From Parafrankia sp. EUN1f (GTDB lineage Bacteria > Actinomycetota > Actinomycetes > Frankiales > Frankiaceae): a DNA stretch of 59,496 nt. This document shows, piece after piece, positions 5,158 to 38,214 of this stretch. The stretch is taken from NCBI RefSeq assembly GCF_000177675.1, contig NZ_ADGX01000050.1, positions 1 through 59,496 on the forward strand, written 5' to 3'. The notes under the pieces are model-generated. The model saw only the letters and a program-made list of their open reading frames with translations, was not told the DNA's origin and did not search any database. Within the stretch, counting starts at the first letter, position 1. The number at the start of each line of letters is the position of its first letter. A program made the position numbers and the translations under genes.

Positions 5158-6068
5158 CGCATGGGTCTGTTCGGCTGGGCGACGGGTCTGTTCGGCTGGG
5201 AGTGGTGCTCCCACAGGCGGAGATCCGTCCGAGCGACCCGCGTGCGGTACGGCGTTTCGCCGAGCACGTCGAGGAGCTCGGATTCGATCATCTGATCGCC
5301 TACGACCACGTGCTCGGCGCGGACTCGCAGAGCCGCCCGGGCTGGACCGGCCACTACGACCACCGGACGCCGTTCCTTGAGCCGCTGACCCTGTTCGCCT
5401 TTCTCGGCGCCACCAGCTCCCTCGAGCTCGTCACCGGGGTTCTCGTCCTGCCGCAGCGGCAGACGGCGCTCGTGGCCAAGCAGGCGGCGACCGTCGACCG
5501 GCTTCTCGACGGCCGGCTGCGTCTCGGTGTCGGCATCGGGTGGAACGAGGTGGAGTACGAAGGCCTCGGCGTGTCGTTCCGCTCGCGCGCCGCCCGTCTG
5601 GAGGAGCAGATCGGTCTGCTGCGCCAACTGTGGACACAGCCCGTGGTGGATCACCGGGGCCGGTCCGACGTCATCGACCGTGCCGGCATCGCGCCCCTGC
5701 CCGTCCAGCGACCGATTCCGATCTGGATCGGATGCGGTGACGTGCCCACCGCGCTTGAACGGGTGGGCCGGCTCGCCGACGGCTGGATACCCCATCCCGC
5801 GCTCGGCGGCGGCGGTCGGCTCGCCGCCGCGTGGACGGCCGTGCGCGCCGCGGCGGAACGGGCCGGCCGAGACCCGGCAACCCTCGGTCTGCAGGGGCAG
5901 GTACGGCTGACACCCGACAGCCTGAAAGACGTGGCGACCAGGATCGACCGCTGGATCGAGCTGGGCGCCACCCACGTGGCCCTCAACACCCTGGAGGCAG
6001 GGCTCACCTGGCCAGATGACCACCACGACCTTTACACGCGGATCGCACAGGCCTGGCAGGTCGAGTAG
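5154..6068 (+). CDS. LLM-class F420/flavin-dependent oxidoreductase
   Basis: The 304-aa product has the luciferase-like TIM-barrel pattern: LGVVLPQAEIRPSDPRAVRR at the N-terminus, HVEELGFDHLIAYDHVLG, then RLRLGVGIGWNEVEYEGLGV and a late PIPIWIGC. The actinobacterial members usually use F420 and act as reductases or dehydrogenases on varied secondary or xenobiotic substrates. The start overlaps the SnoaL-like stop. The first 17 codons contain a perfect heptad duplication caused by a 21-bp repeat. A second in-frame start further in is possible but would remove that duplication. It ends six bases from the convergent P450 gene. Confidence 0.85.
   Translation: MTHGSVRLGDGSVRLGVVLPQAEIRPSDPRAVRRFAEHVEELGFDHLIAYDHVLGADSQSRPGWTGHYDHRTPFLEPLTLFAFLGATSSLELVTGVLVLPQRQTALVAKQAATVDRLLDGRLRLGVGIGWNEVEYEGLGVSFRSRAARLEEQIGLLRQLWTQPVVDHRGRSDVIDRAGIAPLPVQRPIPIWIGCGDVPTALERVGRLADGWIPHPALGGGGRLAAAWTAVRAAAERAGRDPATLGLQGQVRLTPDSLKDVATRIDRWIELGATHVALNTLEAGLTWPDDHHDLYTRIAQAWQVE
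5163..5200 (+). repeat. 21-bp-period tandem duplication in the LLM gene start
   Basis: The 17-mer gggtctgttcggctggg is repeated exactly at 5163-5179 and 5184-5200. This gives the duplicated peptide GSVRLGDGSVRLGV at the N-terminus of the oxidoreductase. The first beta strand of the barrel (VRLGVVLP) needs only one copy, so the other is an added tail. Confidence 0.85.
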
Positions 6069-6074
6069 GACCCG

Positions 6075-7394
6075 TCACAGCTGTGAGCCGCCGGTGTGCC
6101 GGTCGCGCGCGGTGAACTCGACATGCAGAGCCTTCAGACCGCGGAAGAGGCTGGTCGGGTCGTAGTCGTACCGGCGGGCGCCGGCCGGTCCGTGCTCCGC
6201 GGTGGAGATCCTGATGTCGGCCATCCGGTCGAGGATGTGCTCCAGGCCGATGCGGGCCTCCGCGCGGGCGAGCGGCTGGCCGAGGCAGGTGTGGACGCCC
6301 CGTGCGAAGGTGACGTGCTCGTAGCTGTTGCGGCGGTCGAGGCTGAACTCGTCCGGTGCGTCGAAGCGACGCGGATCGCGGTTGACGGCGCCGATCATCA
6401 CCATCACGGTGGTTCCGGCGGGTATCGGCACGCCGCCGAGCGTGGTGGCCTTCCGCGCCAGCCGGAAATGGTCCTGGACCGGGCTTTCCAGACGCAGGAT
6501 CTCCTCGACGAAGCCTGGAATGCGGTCCCGGTGCTCGCGGAGGAACTCCTGCGTCCGGGGATGCTCGGCCAGGTACTGCACGGCGAAGGCCAGGGTGCGC
6601 GCGGTGGTCTCCTGCCCGGCGGCGAACAGGAAGGCGGCCTCGTTCGCCAGCACGGTGGTCGTCGGTGTCGAACCGTCGGGGAAGGTGACCTGCGCCAGAT
6701 GGGTGAGAACATCCTCCCGCGGCCGGCGCCGACGGTCCTCCAGGTAGTTCGTGAAGGCGTCCTCGAAGGATGACAGGACGTTCAGGTCCTCGACCTGGAC
6801 CTTTCCCTGACCGGCGGTGTTGCGGGCCTGCTGTGCGTCGAACCAGGCACGGAAACGCGGCAGGTCCTCCTGCGGTACGCCGAGGAGCGTGGCGATCACC
6901 AGCATGGTGTACGGCACCGCGAACTGGTAGATGAGCTCGCAGGCTCCGCGTTCGAGGAACTCGTCGATCTGGCGGTCGGCGAGCTGCCCCATGAAGGCCT
7001 CGGTCGCCGCGAGCCGCCGTGGTGTGAACAGCCCGGTGAGCAGGGAGCGGTAAGCGGTGTGCTCGGGCGGGTCCCAGGTGGCCATGTACCCGTGCAACGG
7101 CATGTCCGCGCGGTGTTGCTCGACCAGTGCGCTGACGTCGTCGACCTCGGTGCTGGCGGGGAATCCCGAGAACGGCCCGGAGGGCGCGTTGCACGACGAG
7201 AAGGTCTCGTGATCTCGGTAGACGGTGAGGGCCTCCTCATACCCGGTGACCATGGCCATGCCGTGGACGGGCTCGATCCAGACCGGGCCGCGCCGCTCGT
7301 GCAGGAACTGGTAGTACGGGTACGGATCCCGGATGATTGTTCCGTCGGTCAGGAAGTCGAGTGACTCGTATCTGTCTGTCGCTGCCTCGTGCAC
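6075..7394 (-). CDS. Cytochrome P450
   Basis: The 439-aa length is normal for a soluble bacterial P450. The I-helix oxygen-activation motif is AAGQETTARTL, and the K-helix ExxR is in FVEEILRLESP. The heme-ligand loop reads FARGVHTCLGQPLAR; it keeps the Cys and the CLG but has FARG where FGxG is usual. The start is a GTG at 7394. The gene follows the TetR regulator by only 23 bp on the same strand, so both are probably made from the promoter containing the 8044-8069 operator. No ferredoxin gene is adjacent. The substrate is unknown. Confidence 0.9.
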   Translation of the reverse strand: MHEAATDRYESLDFLTDGTIIRDPYPYYQFLHERRGPVWIEPVHGMAMVTGYEEALTVYRDHETFSSCNAPSGPFSGFPASTEVDDVSALVEQHRADMPLHGYMATWDPPEHTAYRSLLTGLFTPRRLAATEAFMGQLADRQIDEFLERGACELIYQFAVPYTMLVIATLLGVPQEDLPRFRAWFDAQQARNTAGQGKVQVEDLNVLSSFEDAFTNYLEDRRRRPREDVLTHLAQVTFPDGSTPTTTVLANEAAFLFAAGQETTARTLAFAVQYLAEHPRTQEFLREHRDRIPGFVEEILRLESPVQDHFRLARKATTLGGVPIPAGTTVMVMIGAVNRDPRRFDAPDEFSLDRRNSYEHVTFARGVHTCLGQPLARAEARIGLEHILDRMADIRISTAEHGPAGARRYDYDPTSLFRGLKALHVEFTARDRHTGGSQL

Positions 7395-18586: not shown

Positions 18587-20425
18587 TCAGCGGGGCTCGG
18601 TCAGATCCCAGGTCTCGAAACTGAACCGCGCCGTCGTTCCCGCCCAGCGTCGGTAGGTCGGAAGACTACTGTGTACGGAATTCCCGTCTCCCAGCAGAGC
18701 CAGCAGACGCGCCCAGATGTCGTGCACCCGCCAGGGCTGTTCGCGGCGGGACAGCTCCTCGATCAGCTCGTGGATACCGGCCCCGTCGACTTGTCCGTGC
18801 AGCGCCTTTATCAGGGTCCGGCCGCCTTCCGGATCGGCCACGAGTACCGCGAGCAGTACGAGTACCGCCTGGTAGGGGCCGTTTTCGTCGGTGCCTATGA
18901 AGTCGTCGAGCTCGTTGTCGGGAATTCCCGCGCGCACCAGGCGGTACAGGTTGACGAACCGTTTCAGTGCGCGCGGTGTCTCCAGCATCGGGCGCAGCCG
19001 CTGGACGAACCGCAGCTCCTGGGGGCGCAGCCGCAGCTGGTCCGGCTGGGGCGGTACCCCGCCGGGCGTGGCCGCCTGCCCGGTACGTCCCGGCCCGGAC
19101 CGGTCGGGCTCCCCGGAACCCGGGCGCGGCCCGGGCCCGGGCGATTCGGCTGCCCGGCGCCGGGGGCGTACGTCCTCGGTGGCCGTCGGCACGAGCCACT
19201 CGACGTAGCGGTCGGCCTCGGCCCCCATCGGCCGCAGCGCGAAGACCACCTGGAAGATCTTGTCCAGGTAGTCGAACGGTGTCGCGCCGCCGGCGGCGTC
19301 CGCGTTCCCGGCGAAGATCTCGGCGTAGTACTGCTCGAGGCAGCGCCGAAGCCACCGGGGATCCACGGCGACCACCACGACGAACAGCGGCAGCGCCAGC
19401 AGCATGTGCACCGCGGCGAGAACATCGACCACCCTGCGCGGCGAGCAGCGGTCGAGGTCGTCGATGTAGAGGATGACCCGCTCCAGCGGAGGCCTGCCCC
19501 GGGAGCCGGCCCTCGTCCACTCGGCGAAGGCCCGCCGCGCGCTGTCGCTGAGCTGGCGCAGGTCAGCGTGGACCTGGCCGAGCAGCCCGCGATACTGGTC
19601 GTAGGCGCCCGACCGGGCCTGCTCGATCACGACCGCCAGCCGCTGCGCGGCATCGAGCGTGGCCAGCTGCATCCGGGTGTCCCGCGCCTGCTGGTCCAGT
19701 TCGTCGACACGCCGCTGGTCGAGCCCGCTGACCGCCTGCCAGGCCGCCGCGAGCCAGCCGACGATGGGAAACCCGGCCAGCACGGCGACGACGCCACCGA
19801 CCGCCACCACCGGGGCCGGGCCCCACATCAGGCCGACCAGACCGGTGCCCATTCCCAGCACCAGAACCACCCCGGCCAGGACGAGCCGGCCACGCCACCG
19901 CGCGAGGTCGACCCGCCACAGCCGGGCCCGGGCCCGCAGCCGCTGCGCCCAGCCGGTGTCCTCGGCTGCCAGATCCTCGAAGGCGCGCAGCCTGTCGCGC
20001 AGGACCTCCCGCCTCGCGCGGATCTGCTCGGTGTCCGATGGCTCCGGCTCGACGAGTCCGGCGAAGAGGTGCTCGGCCATGCCCACCCAGAGGTGGTCGT
20101 CGTTGTAGTGCCAGGCGTCGAAGCGCACCTGGCGGATGTTGGTCGCGAAGATGCTGCGCGCCGCACTGCGGCTGGACTGCTCGGCCAGCGCGGCCACCCG
20201 GTCATGGAGCTGGCGGGCGAAGCTCGACTTGCCGGAGCCCCACCGGCCGAGCAGCGCGATCGCCAGCGGCGGCTCGGTCGCGCGGTCCGCGAGGAGCGCG
20301 GCCATGGCCTCGACGTCCGTGGCGAACCCGAGCAGGTCGAGCGCGCTTTCCTGATCGCTGACGTGGCCGGGCAGCGGGCCGGGGCGGCGCCCGGCGTGAT
20401 CCGCGCACCCGTCGCCAGGTCCCAC
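18587..20425 (-). CDS. KAP-family P-loop NTPase (C-terminal half of a WD40-KAP gene)
   Basis: The conserved part starts at about LPGHVSDQESALDLLGFATD and has Walker A LLGRWGSGKSSFARQL. Two membrane helices (about LVLAGVVLVLGMGTGLVGLM and VVAVGGVVAVLAGFPIVGWL) are inserted in the domain. Walker B is ILYIDDLDRCSP, followed by VVDVLAAVHMLLALPLFVVV. These are the signatures of KAP NTPases, which organise membrane-linked signalling and defence complexes. The only start in this frame, a GTG at 20425, lies inside the WD40 coding sequence and adds meaningless residues. A single missing base near 20365-20400 would fuse this frame to the upstream WD40 repeats. Confidence 0.85.
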   Translation of the reverse strand: MGPGDGCADHAGRRPGPLPGHVSDQESALDLLGFATDVEAMAALLADRATEPPLAIALLGRWGSGKSSFARQLHDRVAALAEQSSRSAARSIFATNIRQVRFDAWHYNDDHLWVGMAEHLFAGLVEPEPSDTEQIRARREVLRDRLRAFEDLAAEDTGWAQRLRARARLWRVDLARWRGRLVLAGVVLVLGMGTGLVGLMWGPAPVVAVGGVVAVLAGFPIVGWLAAAWQAVSGLDQRRVDELDQQARDTRMQLATLDAAQRLAVVIEQARSGAYDQYRGLLGQVHADLRQLSDSARRAFAEWTRAGSRGRPPLERVILYIDDLDRCSPRRVVDVLAAVHMLLALPLFVVVVAVDPRWLRRCLEQYYAEIFAGNADAAGGATPFDYLDKIFQVVFALRPMGAEADRYVEWLVPTATEDVRPRRRAAESPGPGPRPGSGEPDRSGPGRTGQAATPGGVPPQPDQLRLRPQELRFVQRLRPMLETPRALKRFVNLYRLVRAGIPDNELDDFIGTDENGPYQAVLVLLAVLVADPEGGRTLIKALHGQVDGAGIHELIEELSRREQPWRVHDIWARLLALLGDGNSVHSSLPTYRRWAGTTARFSFETWDLTEPR

Positions 20426-21276
20426 AGCCGGATCGTGCCGTCATCGGCGCCACTGACCAGGCGCTTGTTGTCCGGCGTGACGGCGAAGGCCCGCACCGCG
20501 CTGTCGTGGCCGCGCAGCCTCACCGGTGCCTGGCCGGGCTGCTCCGCACTCCACACCCAGATCCCGCCACCGAGGCCACCCGCGACGACCTGCCTGCCGT
20601 CCGGGGTCACCGCCAGGGTGACCGCGTCCTCGCAGCCGGCCAGGTCGACCGCGGTACGGGAGCCGGCCGTGTCCCAGTACCGCACAGCCCCCAGGATCGC
20701 GACGGCGATGTGGCTGCCGTCGTGGGAGGCCGCCACGGCGACACTGCCGTGCGCGGCACCGTCCAGCCGGCGCAGCTCGGCCCCGTGCCGATCCGTCACG
20801 CGGACGATCGGCTCCGATCCGCCGGTGACGACCTGCCCTCCGTCGCTCACCGTGATGCTGTCGACGCGCCGGTGGCCGCTTGGCCAGCTGCCGGTCCCGG
20901 GTGGCTGGATGACGACATCCTGGCCGGTGTCGATGCTGACCACGGTGTCCCCGCGTGGCGAGACGGCAGTCTCGGCGACGCGCCTCGGATACGGCACCGA
21001 GGATGGCGCCGCGGACGAGGCCGCGGCCGGCTCGCTCTCCCAGACGACCGTCTTGCGCTGGTCGCTGGAGACCACCTGACACTGCTCGTCCACCGCCACC
21101 GCGAGGACGGGGCCGGTGTGCGCGGTGTGTTCGGTGAGCAGCCGACCCGACGGCAGGTCCCAGACCCGGATTCTGGTGTCGTCCCCGCCGGTGACGATCC
21201 GGCGGCCGTCCGGGAAGACCGCGATCGCGCGCACGGCGCCCTCATGTCCGGCAAAGAAATCCGCGGGTGTGGTCAT
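20380..21276 (-). CDS. WD40-repeat N-terminal half of the WD40-KAP gene
   Basis: From the ATG at 21276 the product reads MTTPADFFAGHEGAVRAIAV, with repeats ending in RIRVWDLPSG, WDTAG, GIWVWSAEQ and TIRLWDLATG. I count about seven WD40 blades, enough for one propeller acting as an interaction or sensing platform. After LWDLATGARIT the frame leaves recognisable sequence while the KAP domain begins in another frame, in the C/G run near 20365-20400. WD40 and KAP domains occur fused in actinobacteria, so I read this as one gene with a one-base deletion. Confidence 0.8.
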
Positions 21277-21466
21277 GGTGGTCGCCGAGAATAGCCGGCA
21301 CTCGCCCACCGGCCCACCGGGCCCGGGCGGTCGGCCTATCCGATGGCTGACATCGCGCCGGGTGGGGCCGGAAAAGGCTCCCACCCAGCCGGCGCGGCCG
21401 TCGGCGGATCTCGGTGTCGCTTCGCTGTGAACAGGATGGAGAAACCCACTGGAAAACGCACCCGCC

Positions 21467-23053
21467 TCACCCGGTCGCGCGCCCGGCGGCGGCGTCGGTC
21501 GCTGTGCGCGCTGTTCGTGTCCGCAGGCGGGGGAGGAAGGCGGCGACGGCGAGCCCGGCCGCGATCGTGACGGCGCCGTCGATGGACAGGGCCATCCTGA
21601 TGCCGTCCAGGGTCGCCTCGTCGGCGGCGAGGGTGCCGGGGGCTCCGGCGGCGTTCGCGGCGACGACCGCGCTCAGGATCGGGATCCCGACGGTGAGCCC
21701 GATCTGCTGGGTCATGGTCGCGAGCCCGGTGGCCAGGCCCTGCTCGTCGTCGGGCAGGTCCGCGGTCGCCGTCACCAGGAACCCGACGATGCCGAGGGCA
21801 TGCCCGAAGAACCCGAGCACCGACGCGACCATCACCAGGGTGAGCGAGGTGCGGTCGAGGTCGACGAACGCCAGCGCCACGGCGGACGTCCCCTGGACGA
21901 ACAGCGCCGTGACGAGGGTCGTCCGCGGGCTGATCCGGCGCAGGACCCGCGGCGCGACGAGGCCGGCGGTGAAGGCCGCCGCGCCCGGGACACCGAAGAT
22001 CAGCCCGGTGACCATCGCCGAGTAGCCGAGCAGCTCCTGCAGGTAGACGGTGAGCAGGAAGACGATCGCGCTGCCCATCGCGAAGATCACCAATCCGCCG
22101 GCGTTGCCGCCGCCGACCGCGCGCCGGCGCAGTACGGCCAGTGACGCGAGTGGATGCGAGCTGGTCGACTCGATGCGCCAGAAGGCGACCAGCAACGCCA
22201 GGCCCACCCCGGCCGTGATCCACACGACGGGCCGGCCCCAGCCGTCCTCGCCACCGGTGGAGATCCCGTAGATCAGCGCCACCAGCCCGCCGGTGACGGT
22301 CAGCGCACCCGGGACGTCCAGTCGCCCACCCGTCTCACCGCGCCCGTCCGTGACCACCCGCGGCGCGGCGACCAGGATGGCGAGCGCGATCGGCACGTTC
22401 AACAGGAAGGCCCAGCGCCAGCTCAGGTACTGCGTGAGCAGGCCGCCGATGAGGGCGCCGACGGTGAACCCGGCCGGCAGGAGCGCACCGTTGAGCCCGA
22501 GCGCCCGCTGGCGGGCCGGCCCCTCCGGGAACGTGGTCACCAGCAGCGAGAGCGCGGCCGGCGTGGCGATGGCCGCGGCCATCCCCTGGCCCACGCGGGC
22601 GGCGAGGAGCACCGCCGGCGTGCTCGCCACCCCGCCGACCAGCGAGGCGACGACGAGCAGCCCCAGCCCGACCATGAACAGCCGGAGCCGCCCGGTGAGA
22701 TCGGCGACCCGCGCGAACAGCAGCGTGAAGCCGGCGGACGGGAGCGCGAAGGCCGTCGCGATCCACTGCAGGTGGCCCTCGGAGATCCCCACGCCAGCGC
22801 CGATGGAGGGCAGGGCGACGTTCAGGATGGAGAAGTCGACCGCGAGCATGAACTGCGTTCCGAGTAGCAGCAGGAGCGCGACGCGCTGTCGGGCGGTGAG
22901 GCGCTCGGAGCGCTCGGAGGGCTCGGAGGGCTCCGAGCGCAGCTCCGCCGGTGCCGGCGGGCCGGGTTCCGCGGAGCCGCGTCGGGCCTGCGGCTGCGGC
23001 TGCGCCTGCGCCGGCACGGCGACGGGCGTCGGTGTGGCGGTCGTGTCGGTCAT
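21467..23053 (-). CDS. DHA2-family MFS drug/metabolite exporter
   Basis: The product from the ATG at 23053 has a cytoplasmic Pro/Gln/Ala-rich tail of about 50 residues and then about 14 hydrophobic helices. It carries the family signatures DFSILNVALPSIGAGVGISE (motif D1) and RVADLTGRLRLFMVG (motif A), as in EmrB/QacA-type proton antiporters. It probably exports a toxic or secondary metabolite. A divergent XRE regulator gene is adjacent, with an imperfect palindrome between them, which suggests control by that regulator. Longer frames to 23137 have no support. Confidence 0.9.
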   Translation of the reverse strand: MTDTTATPTPVAVPAQAQPQPQARRGSAEPGPPAPAELRSEPSEPSERSERLTARQRVALLLLLGTQFMLAVDFSILNVALPSIGAGVGISEGHLQWIATAFALPSAGFTLLFARVADLTGRLRLFMVGLGLLVVASLVGGVASTPAVLLAARVGQGMAAAIATPAALSLLVTTFPEGPARQRALGLNGALLPAGFTVGALIGGLLTQYLSWRWAFLLNVPIALAILVAAPRVVTDGRGETGGRLDVPGALTVTGGLVALIYGISTGGEDGWGRPVVWITAGVGLALLVAFWRIESTSSHPLASLAVLRRRAVGGGNAGGLVIFAMGSAIVFLLTVYLQELLGYSAMVTGLIFGVPGAAAFTAGLVAPRVLRRISPRTTLVTALFVQGTSAVALAFVDLDRTSLTLVMVASVLGFFGHALGIVGFLVTATADLPDDEQGLATGLATMTQQIGLTVGIPILSAVVAANAAGAPGTLAADEATLDGIRMALSIDGAVTIAAGLAVAAFLPRLRTRTARTATDAAAGRATG

Positions 23054-23103
23054 GGGCCTGACGATCCAGGCGCGAGCGCAGGGTAGCCATCGCCTCACGC
23101 GGG

Positions 23104-23122
23104 CTATCCACCCGGTGGGTAG
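23104..23122. promoter_or_regulatory. Imperfect 19-bp palindrome between MFS and XRE genes
   Basis: CTATCCACCCGGTGGGTAG reads nearly the same on both strands. It lies midway in the 128-bp divergent region, so it is a candidate operator for the XRE regulator. No experimental or family-specific consensus supports it. Confidence 0.4.
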
Positions 23123-23181
23123 CACTGCCAGGGTCACCTTCCAGGCACGGAAATGCCTGCCGGCGGAGTGACAATGCGAGG

Positions 23182-24108
23182 ATGACGGAGCTTGGCGAAT
23201 TCCTTCGTTCGCGTCGCAACCGGCTCGCGCCCGCGGAGGCCGGCATCGCCCGCCCGGGTGATCGGCGCCGGGTGCCCGGCCTGCGCCGCGAGGAGCTCGC
23301 CCAGCTCGCCGGGGTGAGCGTCACCTACTACACGCGGCTGGAGCAGGGGCAGAGCCGCAACGCCTCCGACGCCGTGCTCGGCTCACTCGCCCGGGTGCTC
23401 AGGCTCACCGACGACGAGCACGCCCACCTGCTCAGCCTCGCCCGCCCGGAGCGGTCGGCGCGGCGCAACCGCCGGCCGGAGCGGGTACGTCCCGGGGTCC
23501 GGATCCTGCTCGAGTCGGTCCGTGACAGCCCGGCCCTCGTGATCGGCCGCCGCACCGACGTGCTCGCCTGGAACCGGCTCGGCCACGCGCTGATCGCCCC
23601 GCACCTGGACTTCGACGCCCCGGACCGCTGCGCCTCGCGTCCCAACATGGCCCGGCTGATCATGCTGGATGCTCATGTCCGTGACCTCTACGTCAACTGG
23701 CGGCGCAAGGTCGAGGACCTCGTCGGCTATCTCCGCCTGGCCTCGGGCCAGTATCCCGACGACGAGCAGCTCACCACGCTGATCGGCGAGCTGTGCGTGA
23801 AGAGCGAGGAGTTCGCGTCGGGGTGGGCGCGCCATCCGGTCAAGGACTGCGCCAGCCACGTGCGGGCGTACCGCCACCCGCTGGTCGGTGAGCTGACCCT
23901 GCACGAGGAGACGCTGCGCCTGCCGGAGGACCCCGGCCAGCGCATCGCCATCCTGTCGGCCGAGCCGCACTCGCCGACCGCCGAGCGGCTCGCGCTGCTC
24001 GCCTGCCTGGGCGCGCCGCCGGTCAGGGAGTCGCCGCCATTCGGTGCCGGCCGCACCCCGTGCTCAAATGGTGCAAAAGTAAAGGCTGAGCCCCGGCCTG
24101 GTATGTGA
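23182..24108 (+). CDS. XRE-family regulator with MmyB-like ligand domain
   Basis: The 308-aa protein has an N-terminal helix-turn-helix (LGEFLRSRRNRLAP; PGLRREELAQLAGVSVTYYT; RLEQGQSRNAS). It is followed by an MmyB-like sensing domain with LLESVRDSPALVIGRRTDVL, AWNRLGHALI and the late HPLVGELTLHEETLRLP. This architecture is common in actinobacteria next to oxidoreductase or efflux genes and binds a small, perhaps fatty-acid-like, ligand. It is divergent from the DHA2 exporter, its likely target. Confidence 0.9.
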   Translation: MTELGEFLRSRRNRLAPAEAGIARPGDRRRVPGLRREELAQLAGVSVTYYTRLEQGQSRNASDAVLGSLARVLRLTDDEHAHLLSLARPERSARRNRRPERVRPGVRILLESVRDSPALVIGRRTDVLAWNRLGHALIAPHLDFDAPDRCASRPNMARLIMLDAHVRDLYVNWRRKVEDLVGYLRLASGQYPDDEQLTTLIGELCVKSEEFASGWARHPVKDCASHVRAYRHPLVGELTLHEETLRLPEDPGQRIAILSAEPHSPTAERLALLACLGAPPVRESPPFGAGRTPCSNGAKVKAEPRPGM

Positions 24109-24297: not shown

Positions 24298-25422
24298 GTG
24301 CGTACGGGCGCGATGCGGGTCGGCGTCGTACTACCGATCGTCGAGTATCCCTGGAAGCAACCGTCCTATCTCGAAATACGCGACCTGGCGTCCCAGGCGG
24401 AGGCGGCCGGTTTCGACTCCGTCTGGGTTTTCGACCATCTGTTGTTCCGCGCGCCGGGGGAGCGGGCCGAGGGCGGTTGGGAGTCGTGGACGACGCTGTC
24501 GGCTCTCGCCGAGGCGACGTCCCGGGTGACGCTCGGCACGTTCGTCCTGTGCGCGGCGTTCCGTCATCCCGCCGTCCTGGCGAAGATGGCGGCGACACTC
24601 GACGAGATCTCCCGCGGGCGGCTGGTGCTGGGCCTCGGCGCCGGCTGGCACCGACCCGAGTTCGAGGCCTTCGGGCTGCCGTTCGACCACCGCGTGGAAC
24701 GGCTCGACGAACAGCTGGAGATCATCACCACGCTGCTGCGCACCGGCCGCGCCGACCACCACGGCTCCTTCCACCGGCTGCGTGACGCAGAGCTGCGACC
24801 CGCGCCGCGCCGGCGGATCCCGGTGCTTGTCGGCGGTGGCGGCCCTCGGCTCATGCGCCTGGCCGCCCGGTATGCCGACCTGTGGAACACCTGCTGGTAC
24901 GGCGCACCCCAACCGGGCGACCCGGCGGACGAGACGACGGATGGCTCCGAGGCGGTCCGCGCCGCCACCGGCCCGGCGGCGGGCGACCTGACCCGCACTC
25001 TCGCCGCCGCGCGCGTCGCCTGCGCCGACGAGGGGCGCGACCCGGCGACGCTGGGTGTCACCGTCGGCGTCAACGTCGCGCCCCTGACCCCTGGACGTCC
25101 GTCGCCGTACCCATGGCCGGCCTACCCGGTGCTCGCCGGAGCGCCGGAGGAGATCGCCGCCGGCCTCCACCGCTACGAGGCGCTCGGCGTCGACCACCTG
25201 ATCTGCAACCTCAACCCCCACTATCCACAGGTGCAGAGCCAGCTCGCCCACGCGCTGTCCCTGTACCGCGCCGAGTCCCCGTACCGCGCCGACTCCGCGC
25301 GTGAGCCAGCTTCGGTACCGCCCCCGGCCGCCACCGGCGACGACGCCGGCCGCGGCGGCTCAGCCACCGCCGACGCCCTGGATGTCGCGGGCACCGGCGG
25401 GCGCAGGAAGGAGAGCTGCTGA
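24298..25422 (+). CDS. LLM-class flavin/F420 oxidoreductase, first gene of the KDX RiPP operon
   Basis: The 374-aa protein has the LLM barrel: MRVGVVLPIVEYPWKQPSYL, AGFDSVWVFDHLLFR, GRLVLGLGAGWHRPEFEAFG and RIPVLVGGGGPRLM. The last 55 residues are a low-complexity tail (SPYRADSAREPASVPPPAA) not needed for the fold. A GTG at 24298 has GGGGGGAG eight bases before it; an ATG at 24313 is the alternative. Its TGA overlaps the ATG of the repeat peptide, so enzyme and peptide are coupled. In this setting it could oxidise or reduce the modified peptide, which is inference. Confidence 0.82.
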   Translation: MRTGAMRVGVVLPIVEYPWKQPSYLEIRDLASQAEAAGFDSVWVFDHLLFRAPGERAEGGWESWTTLSALAEATSRVTLGTFVLCAAFRHPAVLAKMAATLDEISRGRLVLGLGAGWHRPEFEAFGLPFDHRVERLDEQLEIITTLLRTGRADHHGSFHRLRDAELRPAPRRRIPVLVGGGGPRLMRLAARYADLWNTCWYGAPQPGDPADETTDGSEAVRAATGPAAGDLTRTLAAARVACADEGRDPATLGVTVGVNVAPLTPGRPSPYPWPAYPVLAGAPEEIAAGLHRYEALGVDHLICNLNPHYPQVQSQLAHALSLYRAESPYRADSAREPASVPPPAATGDDAGRGGSATADALDVAGTGGRRKESC

Positions 25423-25976
25423 TGCCCTGGACGATCGACGAGACCCGAGTCCGGCCGTTCATGTCCGCCGCTGACCGCCGAGACCTGCTCACCATGCTGC
25501 GCCGCCCGGGCGACGCCGGCCACGAGCAGGACGGCGATGCCCTCGGCGCTGCCGTACCCGGCCGCGCCGGCCTGGGGGCAGCCGGCCACGCGCCCGGCCG
25601 GCCGGTGCCGGCCGACCCGGTCGGGCAGGCGCCCAAGTTCAAGGACTTCAAGGACGGCAAAGACTTCAAGGACTGGAAGGACTCCAAAGACACGAAGGAC
25701 ACCAAAGATCACAAGGACTTCAAGGATTTTAAGGACTTCAAGGACGGCACCGACGGCGCGCATCCCGGCGCCGCGGCCGGCCGGATAGCTGTCGACCGGT
25801 CCACGGGGCTCGGTCCGGTGGGTAGCGGCGACGCGGCGTCCGCCCGGACGGTTCCCGGCCGAGCCACCGACGGCGTGCCGGCGACGTCCGCTGTGATCGA
25901 CGAGGACGACATCGGTGCCGTTCTGCGGGCGTCCCGCGTCAACCAGTACCTACGCGCCGCCGGAGTCGTCATTTGA
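25422..25976 (+). CDS. Putative RiPP precursor with twelve Lys-Asp-X triplets
   Basis: The 184-aa peptide has three zones. Residues 1-70 look like a leader (MPWTIDETRVRPFMSAADRR, then a Gly/Ala/Pro-rich stretch). Residues 74-109 are twelve uninterrupted Lys-Asp-X triplets, where X is F, G, F, W, S, T, T, H, F, F, F, G in order. Residues 110-184 are a follower with VIDEDDIGAVLRASRVNQYL near the end. There is no signal peptide and no cysteine. Its start overlaps the LLM gene and its stop overlaps the next gene, so it is made with an ATP-grasp pair and an oxygenase. Graspetide ligases join Lys or Ser/Thr side chains to Asp/Glu side chains, and equal numbers of Lys and Asp would suit repeated Lys-Asp links. 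The family is unknown to me; a structural or binding protein cannot be excluded. Confidence 0.7.
   Translation: MPWTIDETRVRPFMSAADRRDLLTMLRRPGDAGHEQDGDALGAAVPGRAGLGAAGHAPGRPVPADPVGQAPKFKDFKDGKDFKDWKDSKDTKDTKDHKDFKDFKDFKDGTDGAHPGAAAGRIAVDRSTGLGPVGSGDAASARTVPGRATDGVPATSAVIDEDDIGAVLRASRVNQYLRAAGVVI
25641..25748 (+). repeat. 12 x 9-bp repeat encoding Lys-Asp-X
   Basis: Twelve 9-bp units of the form aar-gac-nnn run without a break. Asp is always GAC and Lys is AAG or AAA, while the third codon changes between Phe, Gly, Trp, Ser, Thr and His. The fixed Lys-Asp pair with a free third position points to selection on the peptide rather than simple DNA slippage. The local base composition is clearly lower in GC than the flanks. 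Confidence 0.95.
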
Positions 25977-26920
25977 CCACCGCCGCTGCTGCCGCTGCCG
26001 CGAAGCGGGACGGGACCGCCATGCGCACCGAGCCAGCCATGCCCCCGGTAGCCCACAACCTCACCGCCGACGATCTGCTGATCGTTGCCGACCCCGAGGA
26101 CCCGGTCGCGGCCGAGCTCACCGCCTACCTCGCCGAGCACGGCCGACGGGCCGTCACCCTCGACCCGTTCGACGCGGCCCAGCTGTTCACCGTCGAGGTC
26201 CGAGGCCGGGCGTCCGGTGACGGCGACCGGGGCGGCGAGGCGGGGGACGGCGTCGGCGGGCAGGCCGTGGTGAGCGTCGTCCCGGAGGTGCCGATCTTCC
26301 TGCGGGTGCCGGAGCTCGCGAACGCGGCGGGGAGTTTTGACGCGCGCTTCCAGTACCAGGAATGCGTCGCGCAGTTATGGGCCGCCGCAACACTGACGAA
26401 CGCACCGGTCGTCAACCGGCCGACGTCCCGTGCGTTCGGTGGGGCACTGTCCTACTCGGCCGCGCTCACCGAGCGGCGTGCCGGTGAGCCGGCCGGCTCC
26501 GTGGAGGTGTTCACGGCGAGGTTCCCCGACCCGGCCGTGCAGGTCGACGAGTGTTGGTGGGTGCGCGACACGATCACCGGCCACAGTGCGGTGTGGCCGG
26601 GCCGCCCGTCGGGCGACGGCCCCTACCGCGCCCGGTGGTCGGTCTCCGACCCGGCGTTCGAGGTCGTCATCGTCCTCGGTGCCGACGCCTGGCGGTGCAC
26701 CACCGCCGAGATCGACCATCTGGAGCTGACCGCGCGCAGCGTCACGCTCGCCGGCCGGCTCGAGCTCACGCTCGCGGCAGTGGTCTGGCGGGTCGACGCC
26801 GACGGCGAGCGGGCCCGGCTCGTCGAGGTCGACCCGTTCCCGGGCGTGGAGCTGCTGCGGATGGCCTGGCTGGGCCTTGGCCCGCGGCTGCTGGCCATGT
26901 TTTTCGGCGAAGGGATGTGA
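25973..26920 (+). CDS. Degenerate ATP-grasp-like partner protein
   Basis: The 315-aa product (TTG at 25973 overlapping the peptide stop; ATG at 26021 is the alternative) follows the plan of graspetide-type ligases. It has a pre-ATP-grasp-like start (NLTADDLLIVADPEDPVAAE), then RFQYQECVAQLWAAATLTNA and PVVNRPTSRAFGG. It ends with VEVDPFPGVELLRMAW, which resembles the Glu-x-Asn-Pro metal-binding end of ATP-grasp enzymes with Asp for Asn. I do not see the central lysine strand needed to bind ATP. It is best read as an inactive or regulatory partner of the intact ligase next door, perhaps for peptide binding. Confidence 0.62.
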   Translation: MTTAAAAAAAKRDGTAMRTEPAMPPVAHNLTADDLLIVADPEDPVAAELTAYLAEHGRRAVTLDPFDAAQLFTVEVRGRASGDGDRGGEAGDGVGGQAVVSVVPEVPIFLRVPELANAAGSFDARFQYQECVAQLWAAATLTNAPVVNRPTSRAFGGALSYSAALTERRAGEPAGSVEVFTARFPDPAVQVDECWWVRDTITGHSAVWPGRPSGDGPYRARWSVSDPAFEVVIVLGADAWRCTTAEIDHLELTARSVTLAGRLELTLAAVVWRVDADGERARLVEVDPFPGVELLRMAWLGLGPRLLAMFFGEGM

Positions 26921-26926
26921 CCCGGC

Positions 26927-28039
26927 ATGGACCTTGGCGCGCACATCCCAGGCCTTGACGGCCAGAACCTGGCCGGCGGGCCCGTGATCGCCCTCGGCGT
27001 GGGCACGGATGGGACGTACCGGCATTTCGTCACGGCCGCGTCCGGGCTGGGTATGGACGTCGTCGCGGTCGACCTGGCTGAGGTCGTCGGTGAAGGCGAC
27101 TGGCGGCTGGCGATCCCCGACGACGGGGCGAGCCGCCTGGTGACCGCCCTGGGCGCGGTGGACCTCGACCCGGCGGCCGCCTACTTCGCGCGGCTCGTCG
27201 ACCTGTCCGCGGTCGAGCCGGACGCGCGCCGTGCCGCCCGCTGGCGTGCGCTCACGAGCGCGCTCGCCGCCTGGCTGGACCACATCCCCGGCCCGGTCGC
27301 GAACCGCCCCGGGGCCTGGGCCGACAACGGCGCCAAGCCGCTGCACGAGGCGCGTCTGGCGCGCGCCGGCTTCGCCGTTCCGGCGAGCCTGACCAGCTCG
27401 GACCCCGAAGCGCTGCACGCGTTCGCCGCCGCCGGTCCCACCGTCGTCAAGGCCCTGTCCGGGGTGCGGGCCACCGCGCGCGCCGTGCGCGCCGAGGAGT
27501 TCACCGCGGCGGGCGGCTTCACCCGGGAGCGCGGGCCGGTGCACCTGCAGCGGTGGGTCGGCGGAACCGACATCCGGGCGCACGTCTGCGGCCGCACGGT
27601 GCACGCGCAGCGGATCACCGCGCGTTCGGAGGCGTTGGCCACGCGTGCCGCAGCCGCAGCCGCAGCCGCAGCCGCAGCCGCAGCCGCGTCCGCGGGCACG
27701 GACGCGGACGCGCGGCCGATGGTCGACTACCGCGAGCTCGACGGCGCCGGCCTCGACTTCGCCACCGTCGACCTGCCAGCCGACCTGAGCAGCCGCCTGG
27801 TCGCCGCGACGGCCGAATCCGGCCTGCTGTTCGCCGGCTGGGACCTCATGGCCGCCGACGAAGCCGGCGGGACCTACTGGGTGCTGGAGGCGAACCCCAC
27901 CCCGGGCTACGACTGGTACGACCGCCGGGCCGGCGGCGCGATCACCGCCGCCCTCCTCGACGCACTCGTGCCGGGCGACGCGGGTGAGGTGGCCGATGCC
28001 GGTGAGGTGGCGGACGCGGGCAAGGTGGTGCGCGCGTGA
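26927..28039 (+). CDS. ATP-grasp ligase of the KDX RiPP operon
   Basis: The 370-aa enzyme has the features of graspetide-type ATP-grasp ligases. These include VANRPGAWADNGAKPLHEAR and the ATP-binding lysine strand PTVVKALSGVRA (K175). Later come PVHLQRWVGGTDIRAHVCG and the metal-binding end WVLEANPTPGYDWYD (E321, N323). Such enzymes phosphorylate a side-chain carboxylate and couple it to an amine or hydroxyl of the same peptide. A poly-alanine run of about 14 residues, from a (gccgca)n repeat, interrupts a surface loop near residue 247. The C-terminal tail has an AGEVAD repeat. It is the probable modifying enzyme for the repeat peptide. Confidence 0.82.
   Translation: MDLGAHIPGLDGQNLAGGPVIALGVGTDGTYRHFVTAASGLGMDVVAVDLAEVVGEGDWRLAIPDDGASRLVTALGAVDLDPAAAYFARLVDLSAVEPDARRAARWRALTSALAAWLDHIPGPVANRPGAWADNGAKPLHEARLARAGFAVPASLTSSDPEALHAFAAAGPTVVKALSGVRATARAVRAEEFTAAGGFTRERGPVHLQRWVGGTDIRAHVCGRTVHAQRITARSEALATRAAAAAAAAAAAAAASAGTDADARPMVDYRELDGAGLDFATVDLPADLSSRLVAATAESGLLFAGWDLMAADEAGGTYWVLEANPTPGYDWYDRRAGGAITAALLDALVPGDAGEVADAGEVADAGKVVRA
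27647..27688 (+). repeat. (gccgca)n microsatellite inside the ATP-grasp gene
   Basis: Six exact gccgca units plus one gccgcg encode an alanine run. Each unit adds two codons, so length change keeps the frame. The run falls between the Lys strand and the metal-binding end of the ligase, where a loop is expected. Confidence 0.95.
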
Positions 28040-28830
28040 CGGCCGGCAGGCTCCTGCCGCCGTCGGACGTGGCCAGGGCCGCCGCGGAGTCGGGCACGGC
28101 GGTGGGCGGTGCCGGCGTGGGGGAGACGTCGCTGGCGACCGTTCGTCTGCTGTCCGCGGCGGAGGCGGACGGGATCCGCGCGGACGTGTACCGGGAGCGT
28201 CGGGCCTGGCTGGACCGCGGCTACGCCTTCCACACTCTGGGCACGCCCAGCTACCTCGACCTCGCGCCGGATGCCCCGCCCGGCGAGTACGACCGGCTCG
28301 CCGCGCTGCATCGCCCGCTGCTGTGGGACCGGTTCGGCTGGCTCTACGACCGGCTCGGCGCAGCGCTCACCGAGCGGCTCGCGGCCCCGGTCCGTTACAC
28401 CGACAGGTACGCCCTGCCGGGCTTCCACCTCTGGCGCACCGACGCGATCTTCCTGCGCCCTCGCGCACCGGTGCATTTCGACCTGCAGTACCAGTTCTTC
28501 GACTGGCCGGCGGCCGTAGACCTGTCCAGGGTGTTGTCCTTCACTCTGGCACTGCGGATGCCCGTCGCGGGCGGTGGGCTGAACACCTGGGAGGTCGGCT
28601 ACGAGGCGTACCTCGACGCCCAGCGACGCGGCTGGATCGACAGCGCCGGCGACTTGCGGCGCTTCCATCCCTTGCGGTACGTCCCCTATACCGCCGGCGA
28701 GCTGGTGATCCACTCCGGCCACCTGCTGCATCAGGTCGCGCCCAGCACGTCGGTGAGCGACGGCGACGAGCGGCTCACCCTGCAGGGCCACGGCATCTGG
28801 CACTTCGACCACTGGCTGCTCTACTGGTGA
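28036..28830 (+). CDS. 2-oxoglutarate/Fe(II)-type oxygenase of the KDX RiPP operon
   Basis: The 264-aa protein has the facial-triad pattern of 2OG/Fe(II) oxygenases. HFD in PVHFDLQYQFFDW (H147, D149) would be the first two ligands, a histidine in VIHSGHLLHQVAP (H229 or H232) the third, and ERLTLQGHGIW could supply the cosubstrate arginine. Between them lie FTLALRMPVAGGGLNTWEVG and a helix insert. The GTG start overlaps the ligase stop. In this operon it could hydroxylate Asp, Lys or the aromatic X residues of the repeat peptide; that is inference. Confidence 0.78.
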   Translation: MTAGRLLPPSDVARAAAESGTAVGGAGVGETSLATVRLLSAAEADGIRADVYRERRAWLDRGYAFHTLGTPSYLDLAPDAPPGEYDRLAALHRPLLWDRFGWLYDRLGAALTERLAAPVRYTDRYALPGFHLWRTDAIFLRPRAPVHFDLQYQFFDWPAAVDLSRVLSFTLALRMPVAGGGLNTWEVGYEAYLDAQRRGWIDSAGDLRRFHPLRYVPYTAGELVIHSGHLLHQVAPSTSVSDGDERLTLQGHGIWHFDHWLLYW

Positions 28831-37197: not shown

Positions 37198-38214
37198 GTG
37201 TCGGTGTCAAAGGTTGCGCTAGGGCTCAGTCTCGCCGGGATCCGCGGGGACGCGGCCACCCTCGCCGCGGTCGCGCGGCGGGCGGAGGAGTCGGGGTACG
37301 ACTCGGTCTGGACCAACGAGGCGTGGGGTAACGACGCGTTCACGCCGCTGGGCGCCATCGCGGCTGTCACCTCCCGGCTCGGGCTCGGCACCGCCATCGC
37401 CCAGATCCCGGCCAGGACGCCGGCGACCACGGCGATGACCGTCCTGACTCTGCAGCAGCTGTCCGGCGGCCGCCTCACCCTCGGGCTCGGTGCCTCCGGG
37501 CCACAGGTCGTCGAGGGCTGGCACGGTGTCCCGTTCCGCCAGCCGGTGCGGATGACCAGCGAGTACCTGGCCGTGCTGCGCAAGGCGCTCGCGGCGAAGG
37601 AGCGGCTGGAGTTCGCCGGCTCGATCTATACGATTCCCTACGCCGGGGCGGATGCCACCGGCCAGGGCCGGCCGCTGCGTTCCACGATGCCGCCCGCCCC
37701 GGGCACGCCGATCCTCGTCGCCGCGATGGGCCCGAAGAACGTGGCGATGGCTGTCGCCGAGGCCGACGGCCTGCTGCCATACCTGTGGAGCCCGACCCGC
37801 TGGAGCGCGGCCTGGGGCGAGACGCTTGCCAAGGCGCCGGCCGGGTTCCAGGTGGCCCCGACAGTCCTGGCCTGCGTCGGTGACGACCTCGACAAGTGCC
37901 GTGACCAGGTCCGTCCGCGCATCGCGCTGCACATCGGCGGGATGGGTTCGAAGAAGACGAACTTCTACGCGGCGCTGGTCTCCCGCTACGGGTACGAGGC
38001 CGAGGCCAGCCACATCCAGGACCTCTTCCTCGGCGGCGACCGCGCCGGCGCCTGTGCGGCCGTCCCCGACGAGCTCGTCGACGACCTGGCGCTGGTCGGG
38101 CCGCTCGAGCGGATCGCCGACCAGCTCGCCGCCTGGCGCGACGGCCCGGTCACCACCATGATCATTGAGCCGTCCGACCTGAGCATGCTGGAGCCCATCG
38201 CCACCCTCTGGTGA
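37198..38214 (+). CDS. LLM-class F420/flavin-dependent oxidoreductase
   Basis: The 338-aa product has LLM features: KVALGLSLAGIRGDAATLAA, SGYDSVWTNEAWGNDAFTPL, RLTLGLGASGPQVVEGWHGV and GTPILVAAMGPKNV. I take the GTG at 37198 because the -10 box ends at 37191, leaving no room for a leader. An earlier GTG at 37147 would lie upstream of the promoter. It heads a rightward operon with an acyl-CoA ligase and an SMP-30 protein, and is likely an oxidation step on the substrate that is then CoA-activated. Confidence 0.85.
   Translation: MSVSKVALGLSLAGIRGDAATLAAVARRAEESGYDSVWTNEAWGNDAFTPLGAIAAVTSRLGLGTAIAQIPARTPATTAMTVLTLQQLSGGRLTLGLGASGPQVVEGWHGVPFRQPVRMTSEYLAVLRKALAAKERLEFAGSIYTIPYAGADATGQGRPLRSTMPPAPGTPILVAAMGPKNVAMAVAEADGLLPYLWSPTRWSAAWGETLAKAPAGFQVAPTVLACVGDDLDKCRDQVRPRIALHIGGMGSKKTNFYAALVSRYGYEAEASHIQDLFLGGDRAGACAAVPDELVDDLALVGPLERIADQLAAWRDGPVTTMIIEPSDLSMLEPIATLW

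Follow-up and report, generated by a model that had tools for sequence, protein, structure and literature searches.

The stretch analysed here (the window) comprises positions 1 to 59,496 of contig NZ_ADGX01000050.1 of Parafrankia sp. EUN1f. It contains, at 24298-28830, a cluster of five genes that is a candidate for the biosynthesis of a graspetide-like ribosomally synthesized and post-translationally modified peptide (RiPP) with an array of Lys-Asp-X (KDX) units. An earlier note on this DNA had described a co-directional, mostly overlapping five-gene operon, and all five frames were found where it had placed them, read in one direction, three of their junctions being stop-start overlaps and the fourth a gap of 6 bases. 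The ATG of the precursor gene overlaps the stop codon of the LLM-class gene (TGATG) and lies behind a Shine-Dalgarno-like AAGGAG, the pseudo-ligase has a TTG start overlapping the precursor stop, the ligase begins 6 bases beyond the pseudo-ligase, and the oxygenase has a GTG start overlapping the ligase stop. The features of the cluster are as follows.

24298..25422, plus strand: LLM-class F420-dependent oxidoreductase, accessory (TIGR03619 above cut-off, PF00296)
25422..25976, plus strand: putative precursor peptide of 184 aa with a PFM leader motif at aa 12-14, the KDX array and a conserved C-terminal tail (homologues at the same position in 11 other actinobacterial loci)
25635..25754, plus strand: KDX array together with Lys72 in front and Asp111 behind (Asp at i+4 for 12 of the 13 Lys; register set by the array ends)
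25905..25973, plus strand: conserved C-terminal stretch of the precursor that may be a follower peptide (pattern match in actinobacterial precursors)
25973..26920, plus strand: predicted pseudo-graspetide-synthetase partner with an ATP-grasp fold, having lost the ATP-lysine stretch, the ExN metal site and the Asp of DxR (hhalign, predicted fold, alignment residues)
26927..28039, plus strand: graspetide-type ATP-grasp ligase with K175, D215-x-R217, D267-Y-R269 and E321-x-N323 (TIGR04187, solved-structure matches, invariant residues)
28036..28830, plus strand: 2-oxoglutarate (2OG)/Fe(II)-type oxygenase with H147-x-D149, H232 and R246 (invariant residues, predicted WelO5-type fold)

Only the LLM protein and the ligase carry a family-library label; no Pfam or NCBIfam model was matched by the pseudo-ligase, the oxygenase or the precursor with E allowed up to 1.

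The cluster was compared across 20 distinct loci: 16 recovered with a profile of the oxygenase (species-wide set), one from the Myxococcus family (L061, from genome G140), the window itself and two further Frankiaceae loci (L014, L015). The species-wide set consists of two Frankia, five Streptomyces, Streptosporangium, Microtetraspora, three Nostocales (one of them a metagenome-assembled genome, MAG), a Deltaproteobacteria MAG, Myxococcus, a Geodermatophilaceae MAG and an Ilumatobacteraceae MAG. A close ligase was present in 5 of the 35 Frankiaceae genomes searched, the window's included; the other four are 63-81% identical to it, and genes for the precursor, pseudo-ligase and oxygenase accompany them in unchanged order. 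The oxygenase is rare in the class, with at least six matches among 393 sampled genomes (scored on the best candidates, at most 7 per genome), of which five belong to the family of the window. Its profile gave at least nine matches in 96 Myxococcus-family genomes (best candidates, at most 29 per genome), two strong (G065, G140) and seven weak (E 1.4e-10 to 1.9e-20); the flanks fetched around the weak ones contained neither a ligase match nor a KDX precursor, and these seven were dropped. A first ligase-based scan of genome contigs had found nothing.

The oxygenase is present in all 20 loci, largely by construction. The ligase is found in 19, with a match in two pieces in L038 and none in L042, a 3.5-kb contig. 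The earlier note had named conservation of the peptide beside the enzymes in other genomes as a test of its proposal, and a Lys/Asp precursor does lie near the oxygenase in 19 of the 20 loci, which span three phyla; none was found in L037. The pseudo-ligase was recognised in 16 loci, namely the 12 actinobacterial loci with arrays, L036, L037, L040 (weak, E 1.5e-9) and L041 (with a stop codon in the matched stretch). The families that recur in at least 4 of the 12 actinobacterial loci are those of the genes described in this account and frames antisense to them.

The Lys-Asp-X repeat peptide reported in the earlier note is confirmed. The window array, KFKDFKDGKDFKDWKDSKDTKDTKDHKDFKDFKDFKDGTDG, holds 12 exact K-D-X units (aa 74-109) with K72 in front and D111 behind, and the homologous precursors of the 11 other actinobacterial loci carry 16-36 K-[DE]-X units at the same position, in which Lys and Asp/Glu are kept and X varies. 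Across 19 precursors the codons vary synonymously (AAG 331 and AAA 56; GAC 292 and GAT 34). An origin of the array by chance or slippage was ruled out, because different genera keep Lys and Asp/Glu, encoded with synonymous variation, and differ in X. A regular array is present in 15 loci, the 12 actinobacterial ones and the deltaproteobacterial L038, L039 and L061, and two MAG loci (L040, L042) have an irregular KD/KE array. The two Nostocales precursors of L036 and L041 have no array but a short KxxxD stretch with KEASD, KDASD and KEACD.

Outside the array, a PF[LM] motif stands at aa 12-14 of the leader in all 12 actinobacterial precursors. It can be likened, by resemblance only, to the PFF/Phh-type motif of microviridin precursors (motif wording from PMC8939145). 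PYI or PFI occurs in two MAG and two cyanobacterial precursors, and no such motif was seen in the three deltaproteobacterial precursors; the leader stretch of the cyanobacterial precursors L036 and L041, PFIQDTFRRD, is similar to that of the array precursors. These two precursors (L036:7782-8198, L041:5211-5627) open with a hydrophobic, signal-peptide-like stretch ahead of the leader motif, which would be odd for modification in the cytoplasm. At the other end, the pattern LR[AS]SR...[YFL]L[RK]..G[VIL][VI]I fits all 12 actinobacterial tails (a stricter pattern fits 11, the window being the exception) and fits none of the cyanobacterial, deltaproteobacterial or two MAG precursors.

The register of the array is visible at its ends. 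In all 12 actinobacterial arrays the last unit keeps its Asp without a Lys (TDG, IDG, IDG, WDR, WDR, FDG, SDG, TDG, FDG, SDW, SDW, SDW), and a leading Lys lies 3 residues (seven arrays) or 4 residues (five arrays) ahead of the first Asp, with more Lys further upstream in L029. A leading Lys is also present in all three deltaproteobacterial arrays. With a Lys left unmatched at the start of each of these arrays and an Asp at its end, the Lys of unit n fits the Asp of unit n+1 (KxxxD), a register that we infer for the middle of the array. Asp or Glu stands at i+4 for 249 of the 258 Lys in the 12 arrays, including 122 of 122 in the five Streptomyces arrays; seven of the nine exceptions are leading Lys with Asp at i+3 and two lie at a KDYGKD insertion of two Frankiaceae arrays. 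No residue stays unpaired when each Lys takes the Asp of the next unit, provided that seven arrays may use i+3 for their leading Lys and two may use i+5 where KDYG is inserted; pairing within the unit (i+1) leaves one Lys and one Asp unpaired at the ends of every one of the 12. For the window peptide the possible links would run from Lys74-Asp78 to Lys107-Asp111 (12 links, i to i+4), together with Lys72-Asp75 (i+3).

The enzyme that would form such links had been called an intact graspetide-type ligase, and several comparisons agree with this. Its best NCBIfam match is TIGR04187 (E 1.2e-20, 74 bits, below the 350-bit cut-off), followed by TIGR00768 (RimK; E 2.4e-7). TIGR04187 leads TIGR00768 in all four ligases of KDX clusters that were scanned (window, L030, L036, L040), all of them below the cut-off, as is CorB, the ligase of the corallotide system. 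In a profile search against solved structures, the graspetide synthetases 7drm (PsnB, 3.5e-36), 9bou (PruB), 5ig9 (MdnC), 5ig8 (MdnB), 7m4s (AMdnB) and 7mgv (CdnC) outrank RimK and LysX. The residues K175, D267-Y-R269, E321 and N323 are invariant in 17 of 17 ligase rows, and the VDYR stretch is aligned to IDFR of PsnB; the DFR motif is called critical in PMC13097080. A phylogenetic tree places the 18 ligases of KDX clusters in one part of 35 rows together with CorB (2 rows) and 15 further ligases, and there the 18 group only at 94/62; given its long branches and a root set for drawing only, the tree was used solely to say that these ligases do not stand apart from graspetide ligases. The question raised in the earlier note, whether the enzyme would instead fall with non-peptide ATP-grasp enzymes, is answered in favour of the graspetide synthetases, a placement supported by the sequence comparisons. 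The window ligase also has a long poly-alanine insertion derived from a GCAGCC-type repeat (27645-27695), which none of the 16 other ligase rows has.

The pseudo-ligase is more distant. hhalign aligned it collinearly with the ligase over 243 columns (E 0.0012) at a probability of just 19%, so the case for a pseudo-synthetase rests on the fold. With its AlphaFold model (pLDDT 79, pTM 0.73), a Foldseek search of the PDB had its first 31 rows filled entirely by graspetide synthetases (PsnB, PruB, MdnC, MdnB, AMdnB and a Chryseobacterium RiPP ligase); VIA-align tied RimK and PsnB (Z 15.4-15.2). For the modelled protein an ATP-grasp ligase fold is secure and a closest relationship to graspetide synthetases is likely. 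The E-x-N metal site is found in no pseudo-ligase row: three Frankiaceae rows have E-x-D, others are of VDVDP, VEP, IEP, AEP or IDS types, and the L040 row is cut short. The hhalign alignment, weak as it is, puts Pro at the Asp of D-x-R, retains the aromatic residue and Arg that follow, and sets the ATP lysine of the ligase opposite a gap. With this predicted fold and these lost catalytic residues, the degenerate ATP-grasp-like protein of the earlier note looks like a catalytically dead partner of the ligase. A partner role fits, because two graspetide synthetases in PMC13097080 depend on partner proteins. No pseudo-ligase match was obtained in the fetched loci L038, L039 and L061 or in the short L042, the rest of those genomes not having been searched. 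Because the deltaproteobacterial loci have no such match, the partner cannot be needed everywhere, unless it is encoded elsewhere in those genomes.

The oxygenase at the end of the cluster has the features of a 2OG/Fe(II) enzyme, as the earlier note had it, with an HxD...H triad, a distal Arg and a predicted double-stranded beta helix. All 19 rows of its alignment share H147, D149, H226, H232 and R246; we assign H232 as the distal His, H226 being equally invariant. The model (pLDDT 88) has WelO5 as its closest solved fold (E 3.2e-10, TM 0.64/0.61), with proline hydroxylases lower in the list, and WelO5 is also a weak sequence match. WelO5 is a halogenase with Gly in place of the Asp of hydroxylases (the solved entry is titled 'G166D variant'). 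It differs in this from the KDX oxygenases, where the HxD Asp is kept in every row, and retention of this Asp speaks for hydroxylation in the 2OG/Fe(II) family; a WelO5-like halogenase was not favoured for this reason. In L032 a second copy of this oxygenase (38% identical) lies upstream of the cluster on the opposite strand (5899-6528).

A second oxygenase, of the PhyH type, adjoins the first in 11 of the 20 loci (L014, L015, L027, L028, L030, L031, L033, L035, L038, L039, L061). It belongs to PF05721 judging by the L027 copy, to which the other copies are 66-94% identical, and is located for example as follows.

L027:5348-6220: PhyH-type second oxygenase
L028:6798-7616: PhyH-type second oxygenase
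L039:4319-5137: PhyH-type second oxygenase
L061:9820-10641: PhyH-type second oxygenase

No PhyH-type gene or remnant was detected in the window (best E 0.32), which may have lost it or never had it; the best relative in the same genome, on another contig, is 38% identical and probably unrelated. The pseudo-ligase, ligase and oxygenase of the earlier note are thus supported, and many loci add to them a second oxygenase that the window lacks.

The label of the LLM oxidoreductase was upheld, since the window protein scores 195.8 bits with TIGR03619, whose cut-off is 166.9 bits, and also matches PF00296. Its inclusion in the core pathway was rejected: it is full length at the same position in only 9 of the 20 loci. 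Remnants of about 50 residues lie ahead of the precursor in two Frankiaceae loci (L015:11915-12064, L027:1419-1672), both with another LLM gene (32-33% identical) downstream. Two further LLM stretches in the window, 5184-5915 and 37270-37812, are 32-34% identical to the cluster protein.

Taken together, we consider it probable that the cluster makes a graspetide-like RiPP in which the KDX array is closed into a Lys-Asp ladder and then oxidised, a reading drawn from sequence, models and analogy. The ligase and its catalytically dead ATP-grasp partner would bind the precursor through the N-terminal leader (PF[LM] in actinobacteria), the partner perhaps presenting the array to the ligase. The ligase would activate side-chain carboxylates of the array for attack by the epsilon-amine of the Lys four residues upstream, and the resulting isopeptide (lactam) would join the Lys of unit n to the Asp or Glu of unit n+1. 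In the window peptide up to 12-13 overlapping rings could form in this way, as a continuous covalent ladder. The 2OG/Fe(II) oxygenase would next hydroxylate the linked residues, at the Lys delta-carbon by analogy with corallotide, and the LLM (F420) enzyme, or elsewhere the PhyH-type oxygenase, would serve as optional tailoring.

Somewhat more tentatively, and with rather less than even confidence, we extend this to a family in Actinomycetota, Cyanobacteriota and Myxococcota, in most members of which an active and a dead synthetase would walk as a pair along the array, closing overlapping Lys(i)-Asp(i+4) lactams end to end to give a fully stapled, oxidised helical rod. In a hand-worked geometry that assumes an ideal alpha helix, i,i+4 staples that overlap and recur every three residues would coil about the rod and never meet, leaving X on the face opposite them. 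The KxxxD helix staple is one used by chemists. That the product is a rigid, protease-resistant rod, structural or secreted, is a guess.

Several observations weigh against the ladder. Inside the array i+1, i+4 and i+7 are all acidic, and only the ends favour i+4. The terminal acid without Lys is missing from two of the three deltaproteobacterial arrays (L038, L061), L039 having Glu at i+4 of its last KD. The five Frankiaceae arrays (window, L028, L014, L015, L027) are close kin, so that the 12 arrays are not 12 independent cases and the different end triplets are the better guide. In the two irregular MAG arrays an acid follows Lys at i+1 in a fraction of 0.96 and at i+4 in a fraction of 0.69 of 70 cases; counted over 71 Lys, 67 have an acid at i+1 and 70 at i+4 or i+5, which has little meaning in such very acidic stretches. 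No protease or exporter is among the families common to at least 4 of the 12 actinobacterial loci, and CorC, the corallotide oxygenase, does not match the KDX oxygenase profile at E up to 10. Ser or Thr makes up 97 of the 316 X residues in the 15 regular arrays, which would permit esters with Asp or Glu. Since graspetide synthetases make esters as well as amides (PMC13097080), and the MAG arrays keep the acid at i+1 better than at i+4, the side chains could be joined as such esters or in another register, to the adjacent Asp or between chains to form a cross-linked mesh. We nevertheless judge this unlikely: Ser/Thr occupies X in just three of the 12 window units, no unit lacks its Lys, and the residues left unmatched at the array ends, a Lys and an Asp, fit a link from one unit to the next.

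Two other explanations dispense with the rings. A RimK-like ligase could extend the acidic side chains of the array with amino acids or polyglutamate without cyclising it, RimK having the same fold, being the next sequence family and appearing with LysX in the structure search; with graspetide synthetases in all six top PDB rows, TIGR04187 ahead in each ligase scanned and VDYR aligned to IDFR of PsnB, this seems very improbable. It is hardly more credible that the array stays unmodified, as a charged or structural protein, with the enzymes acting on the leader, the tail or another substrate. The conserved C-terminal tail of all 12 actinobacterial precursors would suit that idea, but what the deltaproteobacterial precursors share with them is the array, while having a different leader and tail, and the two cyanobacterial precursors retain KxxxD motifs without an array. 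The Lys-Asp ladder thus remains our preferred reading.

Immediately upstream of the cluster, an MmyB-like XRE regulator (23182-24105) stands back to back with an MFS transporter (21470-23137) and may or may not regulate the cluster. Further upstream, WD40 and KAP-NTPase frames on the minus strand (18587-21384) overlap in different frames and are perhaps a single gene split by a frameshift.

If the ladder is real, bacteria would produce long peptides stapled end to end by lactams from a simple, tunable repeat with a largely free X, amounting to a natural, genetically encoded KxxxD staple whose unbroken ladder could reach 37 rings in one Streptomyces. A dead synthetase paralogue would have turned into a dedicated partner, and the cluster would offer a programmable biomaterial and a peptide-stapling enzyme set, with 20 loci available from which to choose an expressible system. 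Corallotide chemistry, so far that of Corallococcus, would also be tied to a far wider group.

Lys-Asp isopeptide formation with hydroxylation has a precedent, because it was shown for corallotide (2026, PMC13097080), in which CorB joins Lys to Asp within KxxxD and CorC then hydroxylates the Lys delta carbon (5-hydroxylation). In that report CorC activates CorB, ligase and oxygenase form a complex, and graspetide group 15, to which corallotide belongs, is said to be confined to Corallococcus. The two systems are alike in a large precursor with repeated KxxxD, a TIGR04187-type ligase and a 2OG/Fe(II) oxygenase; corallotide ligase activity needs a partner protein, as that of the KDX ligase may, and the bond predicted for the KDX peptide is the one that was proven for corallotide. 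CorB matches the profile of the KDX-cluster ligases (E 9.6e-28), and its best matches among the KDX loci are the deltaproteobacterial ligases. They differ in that corallotide has five spaced motifs and the KDX clusters 12-36 contiguous units, and in that the pseudo-ATP-grasp partner (16 of 20 loci), the LLM enzyme (9) and the PhyH-type oxygenase (11) belong to the KDX clusters, unlike corallotide. Clusters of the cor type, with CorA relatives, were located in two genomes (L102, L106) by the published peptide motif. In tblastn searches of 22 loci, CorC matched only these two (elsewhere E 0.15 or worse), as did the CorD beta-lactamase (elsewhere E 0.68). Membership of group 15 was rejected on these CorC and CorD results; by the features tested, the KDX system would work like corallotide yet is not a member of that group.

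The synthetases PsnB (plesiocin), PruB and MdnB/MdnC (microviridin) resemble the KDX ligases in fold, ATP/Mg residues and the D-F-R stretch. To our knowledge, a second, dead synthetase, an oxygenase and a KDX array are all absent from their systems. Collagen, where a 2OG enzyme 5-hydroxylates Lys in a period-three repeat, offers an analogy only, as the KDX array has no Gly-X-Y repeat and no relation is claimed. Microviridin linkages are made by two paralogous ATP-grasp enzymes (PMC8939145), so that both kinds of cluster have two ATP-grasp proteins, one of which lacks the catalytic residues in the KDX cluster. An earlier survey defined 24 graspetide groups, as mentioned in PMC13097080, and the new groups 34 and 35 of that paper often have long precursors with repeating motifs, group 34 also having DUFs or proteins without Pfam/TIGRFAM matches; the KDX system may be one of these two, listed but undescribed. 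The earlier note knew of no described group with this combination of genes. No description of the KDX system was found in the literature searched, which did not extend to the supplement of PMC13097080, and to that extent the claim stands, but its supposed chemistry is already known from corallotide. We class the KDX cluster as a variant of graspetide biosynthesis, for which the searched texts gave no precedent in its contiguous array, its pseudo-synthetase partner, its distinct oxygenases and its spread over phyla.

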